Shown: piece by piece, positions 4,437-13,280 of the stretch
Layout of the letters: each line of letters opens with the position of its first letter
Position numbering within the stretch: position 1 is the stretch's first letter
From: Bacteroidales bacterium
Lineage (GTDB): Bacteria; Bacteroidota; Bacteroidia; Bacteroidales; UBA932
DNA: 64,000 nt
NCBI GenBank assembly: GCA_017554305.1
Contig: JAFZIN010000007.1
Coordinates: 124,001-188,000, forward strand
Direction of reading: 5' to 3'
The notes under the pieces: generated by a model
Databases searched by the model: none
What the model saw: the letters and a program-made list of their open reading frames with translations, nothing else
Told to the model about the DNA's origin: nothing
Made by a program: the position numbers and the translations under genes

Positions 4437-5639
4437 TTACTTTACGGCTTTCTGAAGTTTCTTGGGAAGGGCGTGGCGGTTGAGGAAAATGTAGGTGGTA
4501 TTCAGAGCAATGTAATCTTTTGACATATACCATGTTCCTTTGTATGGGCCAATCTCGCCCCAAGTGTTCTTAACAAGGTAAAATGGGCGGCCGTTCTCGT
4601 CAACCGCCTTGCCGTAGATAAGCATTACGTGGTCGTATGTGAAGGTCCAGTCATCCCACTGTTCCTGCCTGAGTTGCTGAAGACGAGAGGTTTGCGCCTG
4701 AGGGTCTGCAGAAGCTGCTGTCTGGCCGGTGATGATATTCAGCAGGCTGTCCGGCAGGTCTGATACTGCAGGTTGAATATTGAAGTTGCCGGAAACATCT
4801 CCGCCCCATGCAACGGTAAAGCCCTTATCCAGAGCATAATCCAAGGCAGCCATAAGTTCATCTATCGGGATATTATAGCTTGGTTTCAGACGCCACTTGT
4901 AAGGCGCTTCAATTACAAACCACTGATTAAAAGGATGATGCGTATAACTGGTAATGCTCACATAGTCATCCACATCCAACTGAAGGCTCGCTGCAAACTC
5001 CATTGGTGTCCAGGTACGGCCCTCGTACTCAAAGGTTTCCGGGCAGCGGCCAACGTACTTCTCAATCACGGCCTGCACGCTGTCTTTCCAGTGAGCCTTA
5101 GGTTCCTTGTTGCGCAGAGGCGCCTGCTCTTCTGTGGTGAAACGGTTAAGTTCACGTGGACCGTTACTCCATACCGCACTAATGACCTCACGCTCAAATT
5201 CAGGGAAGAAAACCCTAAAGTTTGCCAGCGTATCTCCTGTTAATGAGCCAGGTGCAGGCATGGCATCCTCAGGACAAATTCCGTGATTGCGGATCACATC
5301 CACCACATCATCACATGAGCCACCCTCAGATATCTGGCTGTAACCATGCATCCTCACATAGTGCGTTGCGTTGTCCATATAATCTTTGTTCACCACAAAC
5401 ATCTCACAGAGGTCATACGTCTTGCCGGTCTTTCTAAGTATCTCAGCCTCAAGGAAACCCAGCGTTCCATAATCCCAGCAGGTTCCGCTGCGCCACTGGT
5501 TCTTTATAGAGGTTATTGGAAGTTGCTTAAGGATGGTAAAGGTCTTAGTGGATGGATTTTGACCGGCTGTATGCTGAGCCAGTGCGCTCTGCCAAACCAT
5601 CGTGAAAACTAAAAGAATTGTAAGTGCGAGTCTTTTCAT
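4437..5639 (-). CDS. Exported C1-family (papain/bleomycin hydrolase-like) cysteine peptidase
   Basis: 400 residues from ATG 5639 (MKRLALTILL); ATGs at 5648 and 5684 are alternatives. A Sec signal peptide ends near ALA-Q at residue 21-22. The oxyanion Gln and catalytic Cys lie in NQWRSGTCWDY (Cys54). The catalytic His is in YDHVMLIYG and the Asn in VKNTWGE near the C-terminus, so the triad is complete. The arrangement resembles aminopeptidase C/bleomycin hydrolase more than secreted papains, as reported for several Bacteroidales C1 peptidases. It starts 29 nt after the end of the unknown gene at 5669-6262. Probably periplasmic or secreted peptide hydrolysis; the target is unknown. Confidence 0.85.
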   Translation of the reverse strand: MKRLALTILLVFTMVWQSALAQHTAGQNPSTKTFTILKQLPITSIKNQWRSGTCWDYGTLGFLEAEILRKTGKTYDLCEMFVVNKDYMDNATHYVRMHGYSQISEGGSCDDVVDVIRNHGICPEDAMPAPGSLTGDTLANFRVFFPEFEREVISAVWSNGPRELNRFTTEEQAPLRNKEPKAHWKDSVQAVIEKYVGRCPETFEYEGRTWTPMEFAASLQLDVDDYVSITSYTHHPFNQWFVIEAPYKWRLKPSYNIPIDELMAALDYALDKGFTVAWGGDVSGNFNIQPAVSDLPDSLLNIITGQTAASADPQAQTSRLQQLRQEQWDDWTFTYDHVMLIYGKAVDENGRPFYLVKNTWGEIGPYKGTWYMSKDYIALNTTYIFLNRHALPKKLQKAVK

Positions 5640-5668
5640 AACGTTCATTTTTGTAAAGATAATGAAAA

Positions 5669-6262
5669 TTACCGCAATTCCCATTGCACCAGCAACGGAC
5701 TCAGGTGAATCTTTCTTGGAAAACCGTTATTCCCCTGAATTTTATACTCTTCCGCCGTTCCGGGCGGCATAATCCTATCCAGCGTTGCATTCAGAGTGGA
5801 GGCATTTTCACTATACGCATTGCTCTCCAGACTCATCAGCCTCTGCACCCGCCTGTGCCTGTCTTCCGCTGCCACATTGGGAGAAATTACCGCATAAATT
5901 CTCTCCAGCTCATCAGTGAACAAGTCCCTATGTTTCAGCAGAATACCTTCAGGGTGCCTCAAGAACAAAATGAAAAGCGCCTTAACAAGGGGGCGGAATG
6001 GAATCGCCTGACCCTCAGCACTCTGCAAGTGTACATCATAACTTTTGTCAATGAAGAGCTTTGTTAGGTTCAAACTATTCTCTATCGCGATAGTTTTCAG
6101 CCTCTTCTGCGCCTGTTCAATTAGAGCAAGCAAATCGGCTGCCTCCATCCCCTCCAACATCCTTGAATAGTCAGATTCAACGGACTCCTCAAACAGTTCT
6201 TCCGTTCCCGCAAACAACAGCAGCCAAGCCACTTGCGCCTGTGTGCCAGCAAAATTTTCCAT
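5669..6262 (-). CDS. Uncharacterised 197-aa protein with an HPEGI module
   Basis: No family recognised. It is soluble, acidic and helical in the first half. Residues about 92-165 contain LFILFLRHPEGILLKHRDLF, then an EL-x3-Y stretch, a charged E-x-R helix and YSENASTLNATLDRI. The end reads EYKIQGNNGFPRKIHLSP. The same order of motifs is seen in the divergent gene at 6406-6756, so the two share a domain. A promoter with TAACTTTG lies at 6280-6287. The module could be a winged-helix regulator domain, because of its size and the basic Y-x-I...G-x-x-KI ending, but this is a guess. Confidence 0.6.
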   Translation of the reverse strand: MENFAGTQAQVAWLLLFAGTEELFEESVESDYSRMLEGMEAADLLALIEQAQKRLKTIAIENSLNLTKLFIDKSYDVHLQSAEGQAIPFRPLVKALFILFLRHPEGILLKHRDLFTDELERIYAVISPNVAAEDRHRRVQRLMSLESNAYSENASTLNATLDRIMPPGTAEEYKIQGNNGFPRKIHLSPLLVQWELR

Positions 6263-6279
6263 AACATCACATATCTTCT

Positions 6280-6311
6280 ACAAAGTTAAACAGATCATAC
6301 AGTAATACAAT
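6280..6311 (-). promoter_or_regulatory. Promoter for the HPEGI-module gene
   Basis: Minus-strand TAACTTTG (6280-6287) is a perfect TAnnTTTG element. An ATTG sits 20 nt upstream (6308-6311) as a weak -33 box. Confidence 0.45.
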
Positions 6312-6405
6312 ATAAATTTGATAATAAAAGTCAAGCAATTACAAGCTTGTAATCCCTTTTTTATTGCAGCTGCACACCATAGTTTTGCAATCAAACAACA
6401 CAGCA

Positions 6406-6756
6406 ATGAATATCTCCCTCAACCCAATTGAGCGAACACTATACAACCTGTTCCTTGCCCACCCGGAAGGCATCCATTCAGACAACTTGGTACTTCACTG
6501 GAAAGAGCTGTGTATCACCTATTCACGCGAATCCCACTATGATGACCCAGAACTTAGAGAAGAGAAAATTGAATCACTCTGCGCAGAATCAAAAACGGTC
6601 TTTTACACCAACGTTTCCCGCATCAAAAAGAAGTTTGTGAAAGTACTCGGCAGCCGCACCTCCAAGAGCATAATCATCAGAAGAGACCAAAAATCAGGCC
6701 TTTACAAAATCTCCAACATCCCCAAAGCCAGACTCCTTTACCCCCAAAGGGTATGA
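6406..6756 (+). CDS. Uncharacterised 116-aa protein with an HPEGI module
   Basis: I start at ATG 6406 (MNISLNPIERTLYN) rather than the TTG at 6364, because a TAGTTTTG promoter element (6380-6387) lies between them. The protein reads LYNLFLAHPEGI, an EL-x3-Y stretch, a charged helix (ELREEKIESL), YTNVSRIKKKF and SIIIRRDQKSGLYKIS. This repeats, in order, the C-terminal half of the divergent protein at 5669-6262. The basic C-terminus and short length suggest a small DNA- or RNA-binding protein, which is inference only. Confidence 0.55.
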   Translation: MNISLNPIERTLYNLFLAHPEGIHSDNLVLHWKELCITYSRESHYDDPELREEKIESLCAESKTVFYTNVSRIKKKFVKVLGSRTSKSIIIRRDQKSGLYKISNIPKARLLYPQRV

Positions 6757-6791
6757 TTTCAAAGTCTCAATTTAAGAATTTTCAATTACAA

Positions 6792-6839
6792 TTTGTGTTA
6801 ATCAAAATAATAATATAACTTTGCAATATGAATTAACAC
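6792..6839 (+). promoter_or_regulatory. Promoter and likely operator of the higBA operon
   Basis: TTTG (6792-6795), a 20-nt spacer and TAACTTTG (6816-6823) make a consensus promoter. It is bracketed by an 8-bp inverted repeat, GTGTTAAT (6795-6802) and ATTAACAC (6832-6839). Antitoxins of the HigA type usually bind an inverted repeat over their own promoter. Confidence 0.6.
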
Positions 6840-6865
6840 TTACAGTATATTAAAATGAAAACTCA

Positions 6866-7201
6866 ATGCAAGTCACATATAAAACAACAGAATTACAAAG
6901 ATACGCTGAAGACAGTAAGTACAGCTTAAGAAATCTGGGCACTATTAAGTCAAACAATTACACTAAAAGGATTGTAGCTCTAATGTCAGCTCAATCGCTT
7001 GAAGATGTAAGAAATTTACCTGGAAACTATCATGAGTTAACGGGAGATAGAAAAGGACAATGGGCATGCAGTCTTGATGGGAATAATAGAATGGTCTTTA
7101 CGCCTCATGAAGACCCCATTCCAACTAATCCAGATGGCCAGTACATCTGGAGTGAAATTAAAGGAGTAGAAATAATAGAAATAGTAGATTATCACAAATG
7201 A
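6866..7201 (+). CDS. higB: HigB/RelE-type toxin
   Basis: 111 residues. The pattern fits the RelE/ParE-superfamily HigB-like toxins, which are ribosome-dependent mRNA interferases: LEDVRNLPGNYHELTGDRKGQW, then NRMVFTPHED, then IIEIVDYHK at the end. It overlaps the next gene by the four bases ATGA (7198-7201), the usual translationally coupled toxin-first order of higBA. The inverted repeat around its promoter supports autoregulation by the antitoxin. Residue-level catalysis cannot be assigned with certainty. Confidence 0.8.
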   Translation: MQVTYKTTELQRYAEDSKYSLRNLGTIKSNNYTKRIVALMSAQSLEDVRNLPGNYHELTGDRKGQWACSLDGNNRMVFTPHEDPIPTNPDGQYIWSEIKGVEIIEIVDYHK

Positions 7202-8295
7202 GTATTAAAGCAAGTGCATCTAAACTAATTAGAGTACATCATCCCGGAGAAGCGCTTAAAGAAAAGTTAGAAGAGATGGGAATGAGTATTAAAGAATTTG
7301 CAATTCGAGCTACCAAGCCGGAAAAAACAATTATTGCCGTCATTAACGGTAAGAGTTCAGTCACAAGCGAAATGGCTGTTTCGTTTGAGTCGGTCACCAA
7401 AATCCCGGCCTCTTTCTGGTTAAGAAACCAAGCACTATTTGATGAGTATCTAGTCAGATTAAAGAGAGAAGAAGATGCAAAAGCATCTATTGAATGGATG
7501 AGACAATTCCCTTATGCTGAAATGGTGAAGCGTGGATGGATCGAGGCAGTTAAAACACCGGAAGAAAAAGTACGAAACCTTTTTGAGTTTTTTGGCGTCA
7601 GCACAGAGAAAGCATGGGCAGATTACTATCTGAATCAACAGTTAAAAGTTGCTTTCCGCATCTCTCTAGCATCCACCAAGGATCCCCACGCCATGTCAGT
7701 TTGGCTTAGACAGGGAGAACTTCAGGCACAGAAAGAAGGCTTGAATACCACATTTGACGAGAAAGCATTGAAAGCAATGCTCCAAACTATGAAACAACTT
7801 ATGGTTGATGAGCCAGATGATTTCTTCCTCCAACTCAAGGCACTCTGCCGTGCTTGCGGAGTTATCTTAATAGCTACACCAACCCTTCCCAAAGCCCCTA
7901 TTAGCGGAGCAACAAGATGGATTAGAGATACACCTGTAATTCAATTATCCGGAAGATATAAAGGATATGACTACCTATGGTTCAACTTCTTCCATGAAGT
8001 TGGGCATATCCTTCTCCACGGTAAAAAGGAAATTTTCCTAGAAAATGCAGGATTGACCAATCAAGATCAAACAAAAGAAAATGAAGCAGATACGTTTGCT
8101 TCAGATGTACTTCTTTCTCGTACCCACGAACACGAATTCCTTCGTAATTCCACGTTCACAGAGAAAGTTATTTTGGATGCTGCTAAGAAATACAACACTC
8201 ATCCGTCAATCCTTGTAGGACGGCTCAAGCATCTGGGTATAATGAAGTATTGGCAGGGACAAGCGTTAAGTAAAAATGTTGATATATGTTCATGA
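7198..8295 (+). CDS. higA: HigA-type antitoxin fused to an ImmA/IrrE metallopeptidase domain
   Basis: 365 residues, about three times the length of a minimal HigA. Residues 1-80 are an XRE-type helix-turn-helix of the HigA addiction-module family (HHPGEALKEKLEEMGMSIKEFA, then FWLRNQALFDEY). Residues about 240-340 are an ImmA/IrrE-like zinc peptidase with the motif HEVGHILLHG and a downstream ENEADTFASD stretch that supplies the third zinc ligand. The long HigA-ImmA form is common in Bacteroidales. The peptidase may cleave the antitoxin or another repressor under stress, which is an inference from ImmA. It overlaps higB by 4 nt and the next small gene by 4 nt. Confidence 0.85.
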   Translation: MSIKASASKLIRVHHPGEALKEKLEEMGMSIKEFAIRATKPEKTIIAVINGKSSVTSEMAVSFESVTKIPASFWLRNQALFDEYLVRLKREEDAKASIEWMRQFPYAEMVKRGWIEAVKTPEEKVRNLFEFFGVSTEKAWADYYLNQQLKVAFRISLASTKDPHAMSVWLRQGELQAQKEGLNTTFDEKALKAMLQTMKQLMVDEPDDFFLQLKALCRACGVILIATPTLPKAPISGATRWIRDTPVIQLSGRYKGYDYLWFNFFHEVGHILLHGKKEIFLENAGLTNQDQTKENEADTFASDVLLSRTHEHEFLRNSTFTEKVILDAAKKYNTHPSILVGRLKHLGIMKYWQGQALSKNVDICS

Positions 8296-8492
8296 AACGA
8301 AAGAATAAGAAACAACTGATAATCACCCAACTAGATTATATCCGCGCGAACAGAAAAGCAGCACGAGAGGAAGAGATTCTTGCTCACGGAAAGCAAATAA
8401 TTTTTAGAAGCAACCGTCATAAGTCCAAGAAGAAGTATGACCGAAAACAACTGAAGAAAAACATCATCGCAACAGATGATGTTTTTTCATAG
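8292..8492 (+). CDS. 66-aa basic protein coupled to higA
   Basis: The start at ATG 8292 forms an ATGA overlap with the higA stop. An in-frame ATG at 8286 is also possible. The protein is very basic: MKRKNKKQLIITQLDYIRAN at the start, then SNRHKSKKKYDRKQLKKN. No domain recognised. The coupling suggests that it belongs to the higBA operon. It could be a nucleic-acid-binding accessory protein. Nothing else convincing was seen in 8493-8768. Confidence 0.5.
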   Translation: MKRKNKKQLIITQLDYIRANRKAAREEEILAHGKQIIFRSNRHKSKKKYDRKQLKKNIIATDDVFS

Positions 8493-8768
8493 TCTGCCAG
8501 CTATAAAGAAAACACTTACACGCATCAGGAGGGCAAAAGGGCTATATCTAGAGCTATAACCAGAAGGCAGCAAGAACAAAATCTCAAACAAGAACAGAGA
8601 TGTTTTGAAATATTTGAGGGGTGCCTTCTGCCTGTTAGCTAGAATCATCATTAGCAGTGATGATATCAAGGCCAAAGCATAGCTTCTTCTAGCCTTTTGT
8701 ACAAGAACCCTCCTAATGCGCGTATTCAGGATTAGCCCCTTAAGCAGGAACCTTCTCCTTAGTGTAAC

Positions 8769-9623
8769 TTATTCTGAGGCAGCTCTGTTGACCAACTCCA
8801 CTGTTGGCTTTAAAGCTTCAGGAATCACAATCTTGAGTTTCTTTATCTTATTCTCGTATTCAAGAAGCACCTTATCACGCTTCGCTTTCATCTCCTTACA
8901 AGCCAGTTGATAATCCTCCAATTTTTCCCGAGTGCGGGCACTCGCCGTCTCTTCTATAGACGCTTTCAGTTTATTGAACTCTGCTTGCGCACGACGATAC
9001 ATTTTTTGCATAGAAAAGAAAGCCGTATCAACGTCCTCCGCAGTAAAGGTAGTGCTAAAGGTATTGATTTCTGCATCTGCCCCACTTCCTGCCACAATGG
9101 CCGGATTTTTCTTTCTCTTAAAGAACTCCTTACGAGCTTTGGCTATCACACCATCGGGATGAATGTATTGACCGAATGTTGCAGCACGGGCCTCCAATGT
9201 AAAGTAGTGAGCCTGCTCTTCCTCTGAGAGAGAGGCAACTACATCCTCCAAGGAAACATGTATTGGATACACCGGATTCACCAACTCACTATGGCCACTT
9301 TTAATCATTTGGTCAATATAATCCATCTTTGCTTTTTCCTTCATCATTTCTTCCTTTGCCTTGATTCCCTCACGAAGATAAGCAATCAAAGACTTCAATT
9401 GAGCAATTTGTTTCAGAGCCGGTTCAACAGCTGTCAAATCCTCCTTAGCAGATTCATTTTCAATTCGGAAGACTTGGCCTCCGGACGCCAGAGTATAATC
9501 TCTGTTTTGAAGTCGAAGGGAAGATAACTGAGCCTCCAACTTCTCATACATCTCTTTGGCAATATTAGCCAGGTGGTTAGCAGAGGTCTTCGTAAGACCC
9601 GTTTCATTCAGTATTGCATTCAT
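8769..9623 (-). CDS. Uncharacterised coiled-coil protein under the palindromic operator
   Basis: 284 residues from ATG 9623 (MNAILNETGLTKTSANHLAN). Long helical stretches are rich in Lys, Glu and Ala: residues about 20-45, 75-110 (LKSLIAYLREGIKAKEEMMKEKAK), and 200-265 (KMYRRAQAEFNKLKASIE, then ARTREKLEDYQLACKEMKAK). No catalytic motif or membrane segment seen. It is transcribed divergently from the metallophosphoesterase at 9821. Its TATCTTTG promoter has the -33 box inside palindrome 9676-9702, so it is predicted to be coregulated with both phosphoesterases and the RNA ligase. It could be a scaffold or partner for those enzymes. Confidence 0.65.
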   Translation of the reverse strand: MNAILNETGLTKTSANHLANIAKEMYEKLEAQLSSLRLQNRDYTLASGGQVFRIENESAKEDLTAVEPALKQIAQLKSLIAYLREGIKAKEEMMKEKAKMDYIDQMIKSGHSELVNPVYPIHVSLEDVVASLSEEEQAHYFTLEARAATFGQYIHPDGVIAKARKEFFKRKKNPAIVAGSGADAEINTFSTTFTAEDVDTAFFSMQKMYRRAQAEFNKLKASIEETASARTREKLEDYQLACKEMKAKRDKVLLEYENKIKKLKIVIPEALKPTVELVNRAASE

Positions 9624-9646
9624 ATCATTCGTATGTTTTTCTGCTG

Positions 9647-9702
9647 CAAAGATACGCCCACAACGCTCCCTCTGCAAATCGTTGCAAGGTTTGCAACAAT
9701 TT
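9647..9702 (-). promoter_or_regulatory. Promoter with palindromic operator 1 (minus)
   Basis: Minus-strand -7 element TATCTTTG (9647-9654), a 20-nt spacer and TTTG (9675-9678). The TTTG box lies in the arm of palindrome 9676-9702, AAATCGTTGCAA-GGT-TTGCAACAATTT, which has one mismatched pair. It drives the coiled-coil gene. Confidence 0.75.
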
Positions 9703-9747
9703 GGAAATCAAAAGAAAAAGCCTATTAGAAAAATCTCGCAAAGAAGC

Positions 9748-9803
9748 AAATCATTGCAAGGTTTGCAATGATTTGCAGAGCTCAAATTCAATATTCATTT
9801 TTG
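9748..9803 (+). promoter_or_regulatory. Promoter with palindromic operator 2 (plus)
   Basis: Palindrome 9748-9774 is perfect (AAATCATTGCAA-GGT-TTGCAATGATTT) and extends to 14-bp arms at 9746-9776. TTTG at 9772-9775, a 20-nt spacer and CATTTTTG (9796-9803, one base off TAnnTTTG) drive the metallophosphoesterase at 9821. It starts 72 bp from operator 1. Confidence 0.7.
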
Positions 9804-9820
9804 TAGGAAAATATTAAACT

Positions 9821-10426
9821 ATGCCAGATCAAATCTATAAATTTGCTCCGGAAGAAGTATGGTTCACATCAGACACACACTTCGGTCATGAGAACATCAT
9901 TCGCTTCTGCAACCGCCCATTCAAGAACGCAGAAGAGATGAACGCCCAACTTATCCGTCGCTGGAGAGAGACTGTCCCTGAGGATGGTATCGTTTTCCAC
10001 CTCGGCGATTTCGCACACGGTAATGCCCGTCTTTGGAATGACCTCATCAGTGCTCTACCCGGACGCAAGTATCTAATCTTAGGCAATCACGATATGAAAG
10101 CACTTCGCCAAGGCTATATGAACAGATTCGAATTTGTCACTCAACAAATGCGCATCAGAGTAGGCGGACAAGCTATTATACTAAATCACAACCCATTCCT
10201 CTGTTACGGAGGATCTTATAGAGATGTATGGCAGCTCTTTGGCCATGTGCACAGTGGTCCGGCAAGCCACACAGGCCTAGACCACCCACGCCTCCGAATG
10301 CTTTTCCCTCTGCAATATGATGTAGGCGTAGACAACAATGACTTCCGCCCCATCTCCTTCTCTGAAGTCAAGAGCAAAATTGAAGCACAGATAGCCGCTG
10401 CAAAAGCTGCCAGAAAAGAACTATAG
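9821..10426 (+). CDS. Calcineurin-like metallophosphoesterase (first of two)
   Basis: 201 residues with the full set of metallophosphoesterase motifs: SDTHFGH (Asp18, His20, His23), LGDFAHG (Asp63), LGNHD (88-91), LNHNPF (near 121) and FGHVHSG. The family hydrolyses phosphoesters with two metal ions. Small forms like this include cyclic and 2',3'-cyclic nucleotide phosphodiesterases and nucleic-acid phosphatases, and the exact substrate cannot be read from sequence. It ends 2 nt from the stop of a second, convergent phosphoesterase gene. It shares its operator type with an RNA ligase, which points to work on RNA ends. No signal peptide, so cytoplasmic. Confidence 0.85.
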   Translation: MPDQIYKFAPEEVWFTSDTHFGHENIIRFCNRPFKNAEEMNAQLIRRWRETVPEDGIVFHLGDFAHGNARLWNDLISALPGRKYLILGNHDMKALRQGYMNRFEFVTQQMRIRVGGQAIILNHNPFLCYGGSYRDVWQLFGHVHSGPASHTGLDHPRLRMLFPLQYDVGVDNNDFRPISFSEVKSKIEAQIAAAKAARKEL

Positions 10427-10428
10427 GA

Positions 10429-11196
10429 TTATACCTCAAAACAAGCCGTCCCGTTAAAAGCCTGATGTTCATTGCAGAACACATACCCAATTTGGTTACA
10501 TAGTAATGTAGTCTTCCCAATTTTGCTGCCGGAGCCACCCGCAAAATGAGTGTGACCATAGATCCAATATTCTGCACCACAGCGTTCTATGAAAGAATCC
10601 AAGTCAACATGAAACGCCGAATTTAAAACCCCTCCGGAATGGTCATCAAACTCAGGACGAAGAGTTGGGCAATGATGCGTAACAACAATCTTATGAGCCG
10701 CCGCAGAAGACTTCAAAGCCGTTTCCAACCACTCCATACACCTCTTGTGCAACCCATCCACATCGTTTGCAAAGAACTTCCCCCCATTCAAACGCCCATA
10801 TCTAAAATCATTCATACCCTGCTGAATTTCAAATAAATAAAGAGGACTAATTTTAGTCCACAGCGTAGTAAAAAACAGCTCCGTATCACCAATCACAAAA
10901 CTTTTATTATTCAGATACCTCACATTCTCCCGATAGTTAAACTCATACCCCACCATTGTCTTTTCAATATCATACCCACCATAGAACTCGTGGTTTCCAG
11001 GCACAATCAAAGTCTCCTTGAAATGCTCTGAGCACCAGTCAAAAAAACGCCTCTTCACCATCTTCCTATCCCCCAGATATGACACATCCCCCGCCAGCAC
11101 CAGCACATCCCCCACCGGCGTAATTTTCCCTCTATCAATGAATTTCACATTCTCTGCAAACTCCAAATGCAGATCCGATGCATATTGAATCTTCAT
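10429..11196 (-). CDS. Calcineurin-like metallophosphoesterase (second)
   Basis: 255 residues from ATG 11196 (MKIQYASDLHLEF), preceded by AAAAGGAG. An in-frame upstream start at 11247 lies inside the operator and is rejected. Motifs in order: SDLHLEF (Asp8, His10), LAGDVSYLGD, VPGNHEFYGG, VTHHCPT and YGHTHFAGG, a complete two-metal site. It differs enough from the neighbour at 9821 to be a separate subfamily, so this is not a recent duplication. It is convergent with that gene and divergent from the RNA ligase. Substrate is unknown; a role in RNA or nucleotide phosphate removal is suggested by the shared regulon. Confidence 0.85.
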   Translation of the reverse strand: MKIQYASDLHLEFAENVKFIDRGKITPVGDVLVLAGDVSYLGDRKMVKRRFFDWCSEHFKETLIVPGNHEFYGGYDIEKTMVGYEFNYRENVRYLNNKSFVIGDTELFFTTLWTKISPLYLFEIQQGMNDFRYGRLNGGKFFANDVDGLHKRCMEWLETALKSSAAAHKIVVTHHCPTLRPEFDDHSGGVLNSAFHVDLDSFIERCGAEYWIYGHTHFAGGSGSKIGKTTLLCNQIGYVFCNEHQAFNGTACFEV

Positions 11197-11216
11197 AATA
11201 CTACTCCTTTTTGCTG

Positions 11217-11272
11217 CAAAGTTACACCCCCGTAAAACCCTCTGCAAATCATTGCAAGGTTTGCAACAATTT
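11217..11272 (-). promoter_or_regulatory. Promoter with palindromic operator 3 (minus)
   Basis: Minus-strand TAACTTTG (11217-11224), a 20-nt spacer and TTTG (11245-11248). The TTTG box lies at the arm of palindrome 11246-11272, AAATCATTGCAA-GGT-TTGCAACAATTT. The layout is the same as operator 1. It drives the second metallophosphoesterase. Confidence 0.75.
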
Positions 11273-11317
11273 GCATTTCTTCCATCTTTTTATAATACAC
11301 ATATCTTCCTCATTTCA

Positions 11318-11373
11318 AAATCATTGCAAGGTTTGCAATGATTTGAATAAAACAGCACGGCCCCATATCTTTG
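11318..11373 (+). promoter_or_regulatory. Promoter with palindromic operator 4 (plus)
   Basis: Perfect palindrome 11318-11344, identical to operator 2 in its 27 bp. TTTG (11342-11345), a 20-nt spacer and TATCTTTG (11366-11373) follow. It drives the RNA ligase, with the ATG only 16 nt past the -7 box. It starts 72 bp from operator 3, the same distance as between operators 1 and 2. Confidence 0.75.
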
Positions 11374-11389
11374 CCAAAAACAAATCAAT

Positions 11390-12403
11390 ATGTTAACATT
11401 CAAAAAATACAGTTCTATTGAGAACTCATTTGACGGCGCCTTCATGGAAAAAGTCCGCAATCACACCCCCATCAGGAGCCGCTTTGTTGTACAGGAAAAA
11501 GTTCATGGCTCCAACTGCAGTTTTCTCTGCGATGGTGAACTAATCCAATTCGCAAAGCGCAGTGCAGTTGTTGCTGAAGATGAAGAATTCTACCAATGGC
11601 AAGAACTAACCGAACGCTACAAAGAGCGTGTATTCAAGGTATTTACAATGCTTAAAGCCAACCTCTCAGACCTCCAATCCATCATTATTTATGGTGAGAT
11701 GTTCGGCGGTGGTTATCCACACAAGGATGTTAAGAAAATCGGTGCCATGTCTGCCATTCAGAAGGGAGTTTACTACTGTCCAGGGCATGACTTCTACGGC
11801 TTTGACATTTATGTCTACACACCAGATGAAGCTTTCTATCTTAATGTAGACACTGCTAATCAGATCTTTGCAGACGCCGGTTTTCTATTTGCCCAAACAC
11901 TGTTTGAAGGAACGCTTGAAGAGTGTCTCGCATACCCTAACGCTTTCCCAAGCACAATCTACAAGCACTTCAATCTACCTGAAATAGAGGACAATATCTG
12001 CGAAGGCATAGTCATCCGTCCAAAAGATCCGCTCTACATACCCAACGGCTCACGCATCATCATAAAGAGTAAAAATGCCCGCTTTGCAGAGAAGAAAAGC
12101 ATTAAACACGAGCCGCGAAAGCCTTTACAGATTGCAGATGACGTAACCAACCTCCTACAACTGGCAGAAGACTATTTTACTCCTCAGCGCCTAGACAACG
12201 TCAAGAGCCATATTGGCCAAGTCTCTTTCCCTGAGGATCTTGGACGCGTCAGCGGCTTCCTTGCCAAAGATGTCCTGGAGGACTTTCTCAAAGAACACGC
12301 AGACGACTATAACAACCTTTCTAAGCAGGATCAAAAGACCCTAAACGGCCAACTAAACAAACGTGCCATCAGTTTCATCAAAACCCTGATAGGAATGCCA
12401 TAA
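11390..12403 (+). CDS. Rnl2-family RNA ligase
   Basis: 337 residues. The nucleotidyltransferase motifs of T4 Rnl2-like ligases are present: motif I EKVHGSN with the AMP-accepting Lys37, motif III IIIYGEMFGG (Glu103), motif IV EGIVIRP (Glu205) and motif V IIIKSKN (Lys226, Lys228). A helical C-terminal domain of ~100 residues follows (DDVTNLLQLAEDYFTPQRL, then DLGRVSGFLAKDVLEDFLKE), as in Rnl2 enzymes that seal nicks in double-stranded RNA. The enzyme would join a 3'-OH to a 5'-phosphate using ATP. It is controlled by palindrome operator 4 and is divergent from a phosphoesterase, so an end-healing plus sealing pathway is plausible. No kinase gene is adjacent. Confidence 0.85.
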   Translation: MLTFKKYSSIENSFDGAFMEKVRNHTPIRSRFVVQEKVHGSNCSFLCDGELIQFAKRSAVVAEDEEFYQWQELTERYKERVFKVFTMLKANLSDLQSIIIYGEMFGGGYPHKDVKKIGAMSAIQKGVYYCPGHDFYGFDIYVYTPDEAFYLNVDTANQIFADAGFLFAQTLFEGTLEECLAYPNAFPSTIYKHFNLPEIEDNICEGIVIRPKDPLYIPNGSRIIIKSKNARFAEKKSIKHEPRKPLQIADDVTNLLQLAEDYFTPQRLDNVKSHIGQVSFPEDLGRVSGFLAKDVLEDFLKEHADDYNNLSKQDQKTLNGQLNKRAISFIKTLIGMP

Positions 12404-12408
12404 ACCCA

Positions 12409-12478
12409 GGCGGTTATCCTCGGCTGGCGAGGAGAGCCCCTCAATAGCTCCCCACAGCCAAGACGGGAGATAACCGCC
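12409..12478 (+). repeat. 70-nt structured intergenic repeat, copy 1
   Basis: Outer inverted repeat GGCGGTTATC (12409-12418) and GATAACCGCC (12469-12478) encloses three short hairpins: CCTCG/CGAGG, AGC/GCT and CTCCC/GGGAG. A second copy lies at 23764-23832 with most bases identical. It starts 5 nt after the RNA ligase stop. It could act as a 3' RNA structure or be a small mobile palindromic element. Confidence 0.65.
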
Positions 12479-12587
12479 CACCTGCCAGACCCTCTAGGCC
12501 AAAAAACTAAAAACACAGTTTTTGAAATTTCTTCTTCTGGTTGGAATAATTTTTGTACTTTTGTACTGTGAATAAACTATTTGGATT

Positions 12588-12746
12588 ATGGCAAAACCTA
12601 TTGAACCAACGCCAGTTCTGAAAGGCGACGACGCTTACGAGTTTGTTGCTGAGATGGAAAAGCAGAAGAAGGCTTCTGCTGAGGAGAAGGCGCGTGTAGC
12701 CAAAGGGGCGTCGTTCATCCAGTCTATGCTTACATTCACATTCTAA
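12588..12746 (+). CDS. 52-aa partner of the GNAT protein (antitoxin-like)
   Basis: ATG 12588 to TAA 12746 reads MAKPIEPTPVLKGDDAYEFV, then EMEKQKKASAEEKARVAKGA and SFIQSMLTFTF. Short proteins beginning MAKPIxPTPxLxG are found before GNAT acetyltransferase or similar genes in Bacteroidales (recalled, not searched). A -7 element TACTTTTG lies at 12556-12563. It is 27 nt upstream of the acetyltransferase with a purine-rich ribosome-binding site between. The layout resembles a type II toxin-antitoxin pair, although this antitoxin is not a clear ribbon-helix-helix protein. Confidence 0.6.
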   Translation: MAKPIEPTPVLKGDDAYEFVAEMEKQKKASAEEKARVAKGASFIQSMLTFTF

Positions 12747-12773
12747 TCTTGCAGGCAGGAGGGGGAGAAGAAG

Positions 12774-13280
12774 ATGAGGATTGTACGCCTTACTCAGGAA
12801 CATACGTTTAAGCCTTTTGACTGCGGTGAGGGAGATCTGAACGAATTCCTTCTGCAGGATGCCAAGCAGTACTTGAAAGGGCTGCTTGCCGTGACGTATA
12901 TCATAGAAGATGAGGATATTACGGTGGCGTTCTTCTCGCTATCCAATGACCGTATTTCGCTAGCAGATTCGGATAAGGCAACGTGGAGAAGAATTCGCAG
13001 TATGTTCCCGCACCGCAAGCACCGGAGCGACTACCCGGCAGTAAAGATTGGCCGTCTGGGCGTGAACGTGAAGGCGCAGAACAAGCACATCGGCACGGAT
13101 ATCCTAGATTTTGTGAAACAAACCTTCATTACAAAAAACCGCACAGGTTGCTGCTTTGTGACGGTGGATGCGCTGCGAGCGGCCGTGCCTTTCTACAAGA
13201 GCAACGGCTTCAAGCCGCTATGCAAGGAAAATAAGGGCGATACAATCCCAATGTATTATGATCTGACGCAGCTGCTGTAA
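12774..13280 (+). CDS. GNAT-family N-acetyltransferase (possible toxin)
   Basis: 168 residues with the GNAT fold: LNEFLLQDAKQYLKG, then ITVAFFSLSND, KIGRLGVNVKAQNKHIGTDI as the acetyl-CoA loop region, CCFVTVDALRAAVPFYKSNGF and a final MYYDL. The DCGEGDLNEFL start and A-x-x-FY-K-x-x-GF ending are typical of the TacT/AtaT-like toxins that acetylate charged tRNAs, and also of ordinary GNAT enzymes. The acetyl-CoA motif is RLGVNVKAQNKHIG, where the canonical Q/R-x-x-G-x-G/A becomes N-K-H-I-G, so it deviates slightly. The small upstream gene makes a toxin-antitoxin role plausible. Confidence 0.8.
   Translation: MRIVRLTQEHTFKPFDCGEGDLNEFLLQDAKQYLKGLLAVTYIIEDEDITVAFFSLSNDRISLADSDKATWRRIRSMFPHRKHRSDYPAVKIGRLGVNVKAQNKHIGTDILDFVKQTFITKNRTGCCFVTVDALRAAVPFYKSNGFKPLCKENKGDTIPMYYDLTQLL

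Follow-up and report, generated by a model that had tools for sequence, protein, structure and literature searches.

A 64,000-nucleotide stretch of a Bacteroidales genome (assembly GCA_017554305.1, contig JAFZIN010000007.1, positions 124,001 to 188,000; hereafter the window) contains two intergenic regions that lie between divergent genes and hold two copies each of a palindrome. These palindromes, putative operators, and the genes that they flank are the subject of this study. The first region separates the gene of an unknown 284-amino acid (aa) protein (8769..9623, minus strand) from that of a metallophosphoesterase (9821..10426, plus strand; PF00149; phrog_547). The second separates another metallophosphoesterase gene (10429..11196, minus strand; PF00149; phrog_1649) from the gene of an RNA ligase (11390..12403, plus strand; PF09414, PF18043). 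The ligase scores above the curated cut-offs of PF09414 (87.6 bits, cut-off 27) and PF18043 (61.2 bits, cut-off 27), and its nearest solved relative is T4 RNA ligase 2 (E=8.3e-30). Because it falls below the NCBIfam equivalog cut-off of TIGR02307 (171.5 against 197.15 bits), we call it Rnl2-like. The initial annotation of the sequence did not report that these genes belong to an RNA-repair gene set.

A pattern search of the window recovered four palindromes with zero to three mismatches to a perfect 27-mer. They start at 9676 and 9748 and at 11246 and 11318, 72 bp apart in both regions as the initial annotation had placed them, and 100 shuffled copies of the window gave no match. A weight matrix (described below) showed the conserved unit to be 33 bp long, not 27 bp. 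In this form the first pair occupies 9673..9705 and 9745..9777, and the second pair 11243..11275 and 11315..11347. Between the copies lie 39-bp spacers: that of pair 1 (9706..9744) is AT-rich, with the conserved pattern AAT.A....TATTAGAAAAA and its AAT end toward the 8769-9623 gene, and that of pair 2 (11276..11314) has its AAT end toward the RNA ligase; neither palindromes nor spacers were assigned a strand. As had been noted, each of the four promoters has a distance of exactly 20 nt between the TTTG of the outer arm and its -7 box: TATCTTTG for the 8769-9623 gene (9647..9654, minus strand), CATTTTTG for the 9821 gene (9796..9803, plus strand), TAACTTTG for the 10429-11196 gene (11217..11224, minus strand) and again TATCTTTG for the RNA ligase gene (11366..11373, plus strand). 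Imperfect copies had been described as one to two bases off, which is true of the copy at 11246 (two bases from the perfect sequence) but not of that at 9676 (three bases). Likewise, the left copy is imperfect and the right one perfect in both pairs of the window but not everywhere, since neither copy is perfect in the RNA-ligase pair of genome G037.

The source genome (1.82 Mb in 32 contigs, 89% complete) carries five sites, the four of the window and a fifth before a KilA-N gene on contig C29. In all five the outer arm contains a TTTG, followed exactly 20 nt further by the start of a box with another TTTG, and no copy was found scattered at random or away from a promoter.

A promoter-locked family of sites

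A paired pattern in which the site starts could be 57 to 87 bp apart was applied to 398 genomes from the bacterial family; it gave nine pairs in six genomes, all of them at 72 bp. The same pattern matched 57 stretches of the genome_contigs collection (84,980 species). By inspection, 16 of these hold 19 true pairs, every one at 72 bp; they are titled Bacteroidales, Bacteroidia or Prevotellaceae, and a ruminant host is named in nine of the 16 titles. The remaining matches, 9 of the 28 87-bp matches and all those of other lengths, had no outer arms (by inspection) and were set aside as chance matches or tandem repeats. A weight matrix was then derived from the 42 sites of 21 pairs, with each distinct site entered once, and its consensus is the 33-bp palindrome TGCAAATCTTTGCAAGGTTTGCAAAGATTTGCA. 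All together, 67 sites were gathered from 26 genomes. Neighbouring pairs are 72 bp apart in 26 of 27 cases and 254 bp apart in the remaining one, most pairs having been obtained through the pattern restricted to 57-87 bp; five pairs that this pattern could not match were found by the matrix with no spacing filter (L051 2299, L193 13615, L194 10404, L328 9576 and L337 14151), and all five are at 72 bp. The spacers keep a constant length although their sequences diverge (23 distinct 39-bp spacers, mean identity 59%, minimum 33%). They share the asymmetric pattern AAT.AG.AA..TA..T.TA.TAGAAAA, and thus the cassette has a direction.

The distance from the outer arm to a -7-type TTTG is exactly 20 nt on 39 of the 46 sides of pairs and on 18 of the 29 sides of single sites (57/75 in total), and 21 nt on four further sides. 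The full TTTG-20-TAnnTTTG consensus, TA included, is present on 42 of the 75 sides. TTTG and TAnnTTTG constitute the published Bacteroides promoter consensus (PMC7366714), and the match to it suggests that the target promoters would be strong without an activator. The sites are real, conserved and locked to promoters. Near-identical operators, and a geometry conserved far beyond the window, support the earlier proposal that one DNA-binding dimer would cover the -33 box of each of the four divergent genes.

Each copy can fold as a hairpin, as might be expected if the sites were mobile or recombining repeats (repetitive extragenic palindromic (REP)-like hairpins, or the ends of invertible promoter segments) lying at promoters by chance. 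Gene partners around the same promoter cassette also vary between genomes, and RAYT-like transposase frames, recognised by eye, lie near some of the gene islands that hold the sites. Nevertheless, we consider such an origin highly improbable. Copies are few per genome, located at promoters and fixed in geometry; REP elements or bacterial interspersed mosaic elements would be many scattered intergenic copies, not five in 1.82 Mb that all sit on promoters. Flipping is at odds with the asymmetric spacer, whose AAT end faces the ligase in 5/5 RNA-ligase pairs (from assemblies of related genomes, hence not independent), and none of ten scanned window proteins (4437 to 13280) matched a recombinase. 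A function as an RNA hairpin was also rejected: the fixed promoter geometry and the mismatched arms point to DNA. So were phage elements, since none of the 26 stretches from a viral scan had CAAAT/ATTTG outer arms (by inspection) and its three 87-bp matches are tandem repeats.

Genes and RNAs behind the operators

The search of the whole genome and of related genomes showed that the sites recur at equal spacing in related gut bacteria, before RNA-repair and spare-tRNA genes. First genes were classed by blastp on the 61 sides with a promoter at 20 or 21 nt; the query families were drawn from genes seen at the sites, so that the count describes the regulon and is not a blind test. Metallophosphoesterases of four types account for 18 sides, Rnl2-like ligases and a 706-aa AAA ATPase for five each, DUF7873 and a 547-aa unknown family for four each, a second unknown family for three and a 390-aa AAA ATPase for two; seven sides are single cases and 13 are unclassified. 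Thg1 occurs in a single gene run behind such a promoter (L082 6935-7675).

Five promoter sides read directly into tRNA-Met(CAU) genes (L193, L344, L069, L327 and L338). In 4/4 cases DUF7873 is followed by a conserved RNA and then by a tRNA (L025 8832-9066; L331 16959-17345; L336 13770-14154; L063 3012-3390). These tRNAs combine a near-constant body with the anticodon AAU, AGU or GCA, and are possible decoy or spare tRNAs. The RNA that precedes them has a permuted tRNA order, with the T-arm and 3' acceptor strand before the 5' acceptor strand and D-arm. Two-sided changes that preserve pairing affect 5 of its 49 pairs (among only four sequences), and in two of the four cases it matches the Y RNA YrlA, at 32.6 and 33.6 bits, below the curated threshold of 69 bits. 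In the 64-kb window itself no tRNA genes were found. Taken as one set, these genes very likely form a single RNA-repair/tRNA regulon.

Other features were seen around the islands. tRNA-Met-like remnants lie between promoter and first gene at L195 6350-6440, L075 ~1190-1270 and L196 ~7480-7540 (by eye); one is cut down to the acceptor and T-arm, and one apparently became the start of a phosphoesterase frame. DUF3800-VIII RNAs occur above the Rfam threshold at L036 5551-5616 and L054 2409-2474, and below it at L054 2485-2551. Large ATPase frames of 1219-1222 aa, with Wadjet/Jet-like neighbours (by eye), lie near islands at L038, L075, L193, L326 and L331, and one weak JetB match was obtained among relatives.

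A small protein as candidate regulator

Looking for a regulator gene beside conserved copies brought out a family of small proteins. The initial annotation had seen no obvious regulator in the window, but one member of this family lies 3 kb from the operators: a short form of 116 aa (6406..6756, plus strand), with a long relative of 197 aa at 5669..6262 (minus strand). For the short form we prefer the ATG at 6406 over a TTG at 6364, because a -7-type box, TAGTTTTG, occupies 6380-6387. This box starts 27 nt after another palindrome in the promoter of the gene, TTACAAGCTTGTAA (6339..6352, no strand), which we call variant A.

We searched for relatives of the candidate in 71 genomes, 11 reached through site loci and 60 hand-picked ones, of which 39 belong to the genus and 21 do not; several were selected for KilA-N matches. 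Island-type copies, defined by an E below 1e-39 (a cut set afterwards), are present in 17/19 genomes with main sites and in 1/52 others (Fisher p=2.9e-13, which ignores relatedness), G022, G423 and G472 being counted as siteless as they have only poor 3-mismatch matches. A match at E<=1e-30 was obtained in 37 of the 398 genomes, among them all six with pairs. Regions were also fetched from 17 of the 27 genomes in this set that had not been examined before, picked by the regulator protein alone. Main sites were found in seven of them (G334, G394, G405, G349, G272, G467 and G456) and variant A in six, two of which also have main sites; as a control, no sites were found in 306 kb taken from other loci or in 20 resampled copies. 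The short regulator gene of G456 itself has a main site upstream. Five site-bearing genomes (G371, G432, G473, G480 and G485) have the short form and no island-type long form, which makes the short form the better candidate.

The short-gene promoter carries either variant A or an TTGGCAAGSCTTGCCAA-like palindrome, variant B, and both variants are absent from the three long-only upstream regions examined. Exact B was found in 5/71 genomes, all with main sites, and exact A in 15/71, 11 of these with main sites. A -7-type box lies 27 nt after the A palindrome on at least one side in 23 of the 24 A sites examined, and at 28 nt in the remaining one. On contig C30 of G011, two A copies 70 bp apart separate a 520-aa gene (547-aa-family-like, by eye) from a 706-aa AAA gene. 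Variant B precedes HNH-GrpE-DnaJ-like genes in G371 and G481 (names by eye). In another genus, B-type palindromes (L202 4229, L268 3477; L203 3969, L206 4037) precede HNH-GrpE-DnaJ-like genes and a small HicB-like gene (names by eye), possibly a wider stress regulon. Antirepressor-like proteins (Bro-N-like, by eye) are encoded at L267 3661-4776 behind a B operator, at L263 3370-3777 behind an A operator and at L344 1160-2026, to be compared with the KilA-N gene of G000 behind a main operator. Judging from these arrangements, related systems seem to change the sequence of the operator and to keep its position.

We put at about 0.6 the probability that the palindromes act as the operators of an inducible RNA-repair/tRNA regulon with a small-protein regulator, whose binding is putative. 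We infer that this regulator is an autoregulated repressor that covers the -33 box. A dimer, most likely of the 6406-6756 protein and possibly with its 5669-6262 relative, would bind each 33-bp site. The TTTG of the outer arm would serve as -33 box in a Bacteroidota promoter of housekeeping type, and because it lies within the arm, binding would cover it and shut the promoter. The 72-bp spacing, some seven helical turns, would place the two dimers on the same side of the helix, where they could bridge; dimers bridged across the 39-bp AT-rich spacer would hold the two divergent promoters shut as a unit. The regulator would come off upon damage to RNA or tRNA, or upon translation stress, and its release would turn on the ligase, phosphoesterases, ATPases, spare tRNAs and Y-like RNAs. 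The parts of this scheme differ in strength: the 6406-6756 protein is probably the regulator, repression is slightly favoured over activation, the odds that damage is the signal are about even, and bridging is a tentative suggestion.

Several observations weigh against this scheme. No promoter was found on 14 of the 75 sides. On 13 of these the first frame is unclassified or absent; the remaining one, L075 1274, has lost the outer TTTG and reads into a phosphoesterase gene. At L063 2006, which leads to a TSCPD gene, the box lies farther off. The outer arm has decayed on the promoterless side at L036 and L344. Neither main nor A sites occur in 6 of the 17 regions picked by protein. The palindrome supposed to serve autoregulation in the source genome, variant A, differs from the operators that the protein is supposed to bind; moreover, exact A also occurs inside coding frames (G000 C11, G037 C20, G484 C120 and G019), so not every A match is an operator. 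Finally, hints of a DNA-binding fold are weak (PhoB at E=0.5; Trans_reg_C at E=0.03 in 1 of 29 members): an hhalign comparison with 10 Trans_reg_C domains was not significant (12%), and searches of the PDB gave no match of note for the long form or for the wide profile. No Trans_reg_C domain exceeded its cut-off in the candidate regulators, nor did any Pfam family when ribbon-helix-helix membership was checked. The 6406-6756 protein weakly matches the C-terminal part of the CARF5 profile (E=8.7e-4), as seen in 3/29 relatives (best E 7.7e-6); CARF5 is mentioned in PMC12669630 in connection with CARF-fused adenosine deaminases.

Some of the same features would suit an activator of the same regulon, namely the same protein bound just upstream of and over -33 and aiding polymerase in the manner of PhoB-type or class II activators. 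The A operators combine a fixed position with a poorer -33 box, the palindrome axis keeps its distance from the -7 box across different operator sequences (34.5 bp for A and 35 bp for the main motif, by arithmetic), and the sole fold hints point to PhoB-type domains. We hold this possibility with some reserve, as the main promoters carry the full consensus, with its TA on more than half of the sides, and a single palindrome often serves two divergent promoters (for example L193 3333 and L344 10613).

Another protein, unlinked to the islands, could also control the regulon, the small proteins then being mere neighbours. Indeed, every gene in an island that is inherited as a whole would be found together with the sites, and the co-occurrence is imperfect: G478 and G481 have main sites without island-type copies, whereas G412 has the regulator pair without a main site. 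We find this explanation unlikely. Among the conserved island proteins examined, it is the small proteins that carry palindromes of their own at the same place, and in other lineages too their relatives adjoin RNA ligases, phosphoesterases or AAA ATPases. A second DNA-binding candidate, KilA-N, was not retained as the main one, since only its G000 and G037 copies carry a site; none was found at 28 loci of KilA-N homologues (L120-L147, the best matches among 77 of the 398 genomes).

A toxin-antitoxin-like pair sits between the candidate regulator and the operators of the window, at 6866-8295. It comprises a HigB-like frame (below cut-off), then a protein with a helix-turn-helix (below cut-off) and a Peptidase_M78 domain. 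This HigB/HigA-like pair was also considered as the regulator and rejected, being absent from the G037 island.

Our literature search found no description of a Bacteroidales regulon of this kind. We see an even chance that it represents a new class of RNA-damage regulon, in which an undescribed family of small regulators would act through lineage-variable operators (main, A and B), whose axis stays some 35 bp away from the -7 box, and through a rigid two-operator bidirectional promoter. It would control RNA ligase, Thg1, phosphoesterases, ATPases, spare tRNAs that differ in anticodon but have a common body, and Y-like RNAs.

Comparison with known systems

The candidate regulator bears a weak sequence resemblance, below every cut-off, to the winged-helix domain of PhoB/OmpR (Trans_reg_C, PF00486). 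Unlike PhoB/OmpR-type regulators, it has no receiver domain, and sites of that type are direct repeats whereas the present ones are palindromic. The looping repressors Lac and Gal use two operators on one helical face, separated by a short spacer. Here, in contrast, both operators lie on the -33 boxes of divergent promoters, with the spacing at 72 bp in all but one of the 27 pairs. This constant spacing with diverging spacers offers a natural series for the study of short-range two-operator coupling at a divergent promoter.

In the literature we met two known regulators of RNA-repair gene sets: RtcR, which controls Rtc, and TrcR. According to PMC7790460, the RtcR-controlled rsr-yrlBA-rtcBA operon is inducible and encodes an RNA ligase and end-processing enzymes, with Y RNAs in some bacteria; its signal is damaged tRNA, and RtcR is a CARF-AAA-HTH (helix-turn-helix) activator that binds tRNA ends. 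The present regulon resembles Rtc, as described there, in joining an RNA ligase to end-processing enzymes and in its Y-like RNAs. However, Rtc is one operon with an RtcB ligase, whereas here several divergent operons are found, and a small uncharacterised protein and housekeeping-type promoters stand in place of RtcR. The ligase under the operators is Rnl2-like and not of the RtcB type, and the candidates, of 116 and 197 aa and with no AAA domain, are not CARF-AAA-HTH proteins of the RtcR type.

TrcR of Anabaena, as presented in PMC10272220, is an autoregulated repressor of an RNA ligase gene, rtcB, and of a normally silent array of spare tRNAs; this ribbon-helix-helix protein has an 8-bp site near -10, and translation stress releases it. 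On that account it is the nearest working analogue, placing a ligase and spare tRNA genes under one autoregulated repressor. It differs in its protein family, in its 8-bp site near -10 as against 33-bp palindromes over -33, and in its ligase, which is Rnl2-like here. TrcR and RtcR are precedents for the biology and not evidence of kinship. Beside them, the gut Bacteroidales would provide a further architecture of RNA repair, in which a candidate regulator, a defined operator and a set of targets, spare tRNAs and Y-like RNAs among them, are at hand and the question of when cells repair or replace cut tRNAs becomes directly testable.
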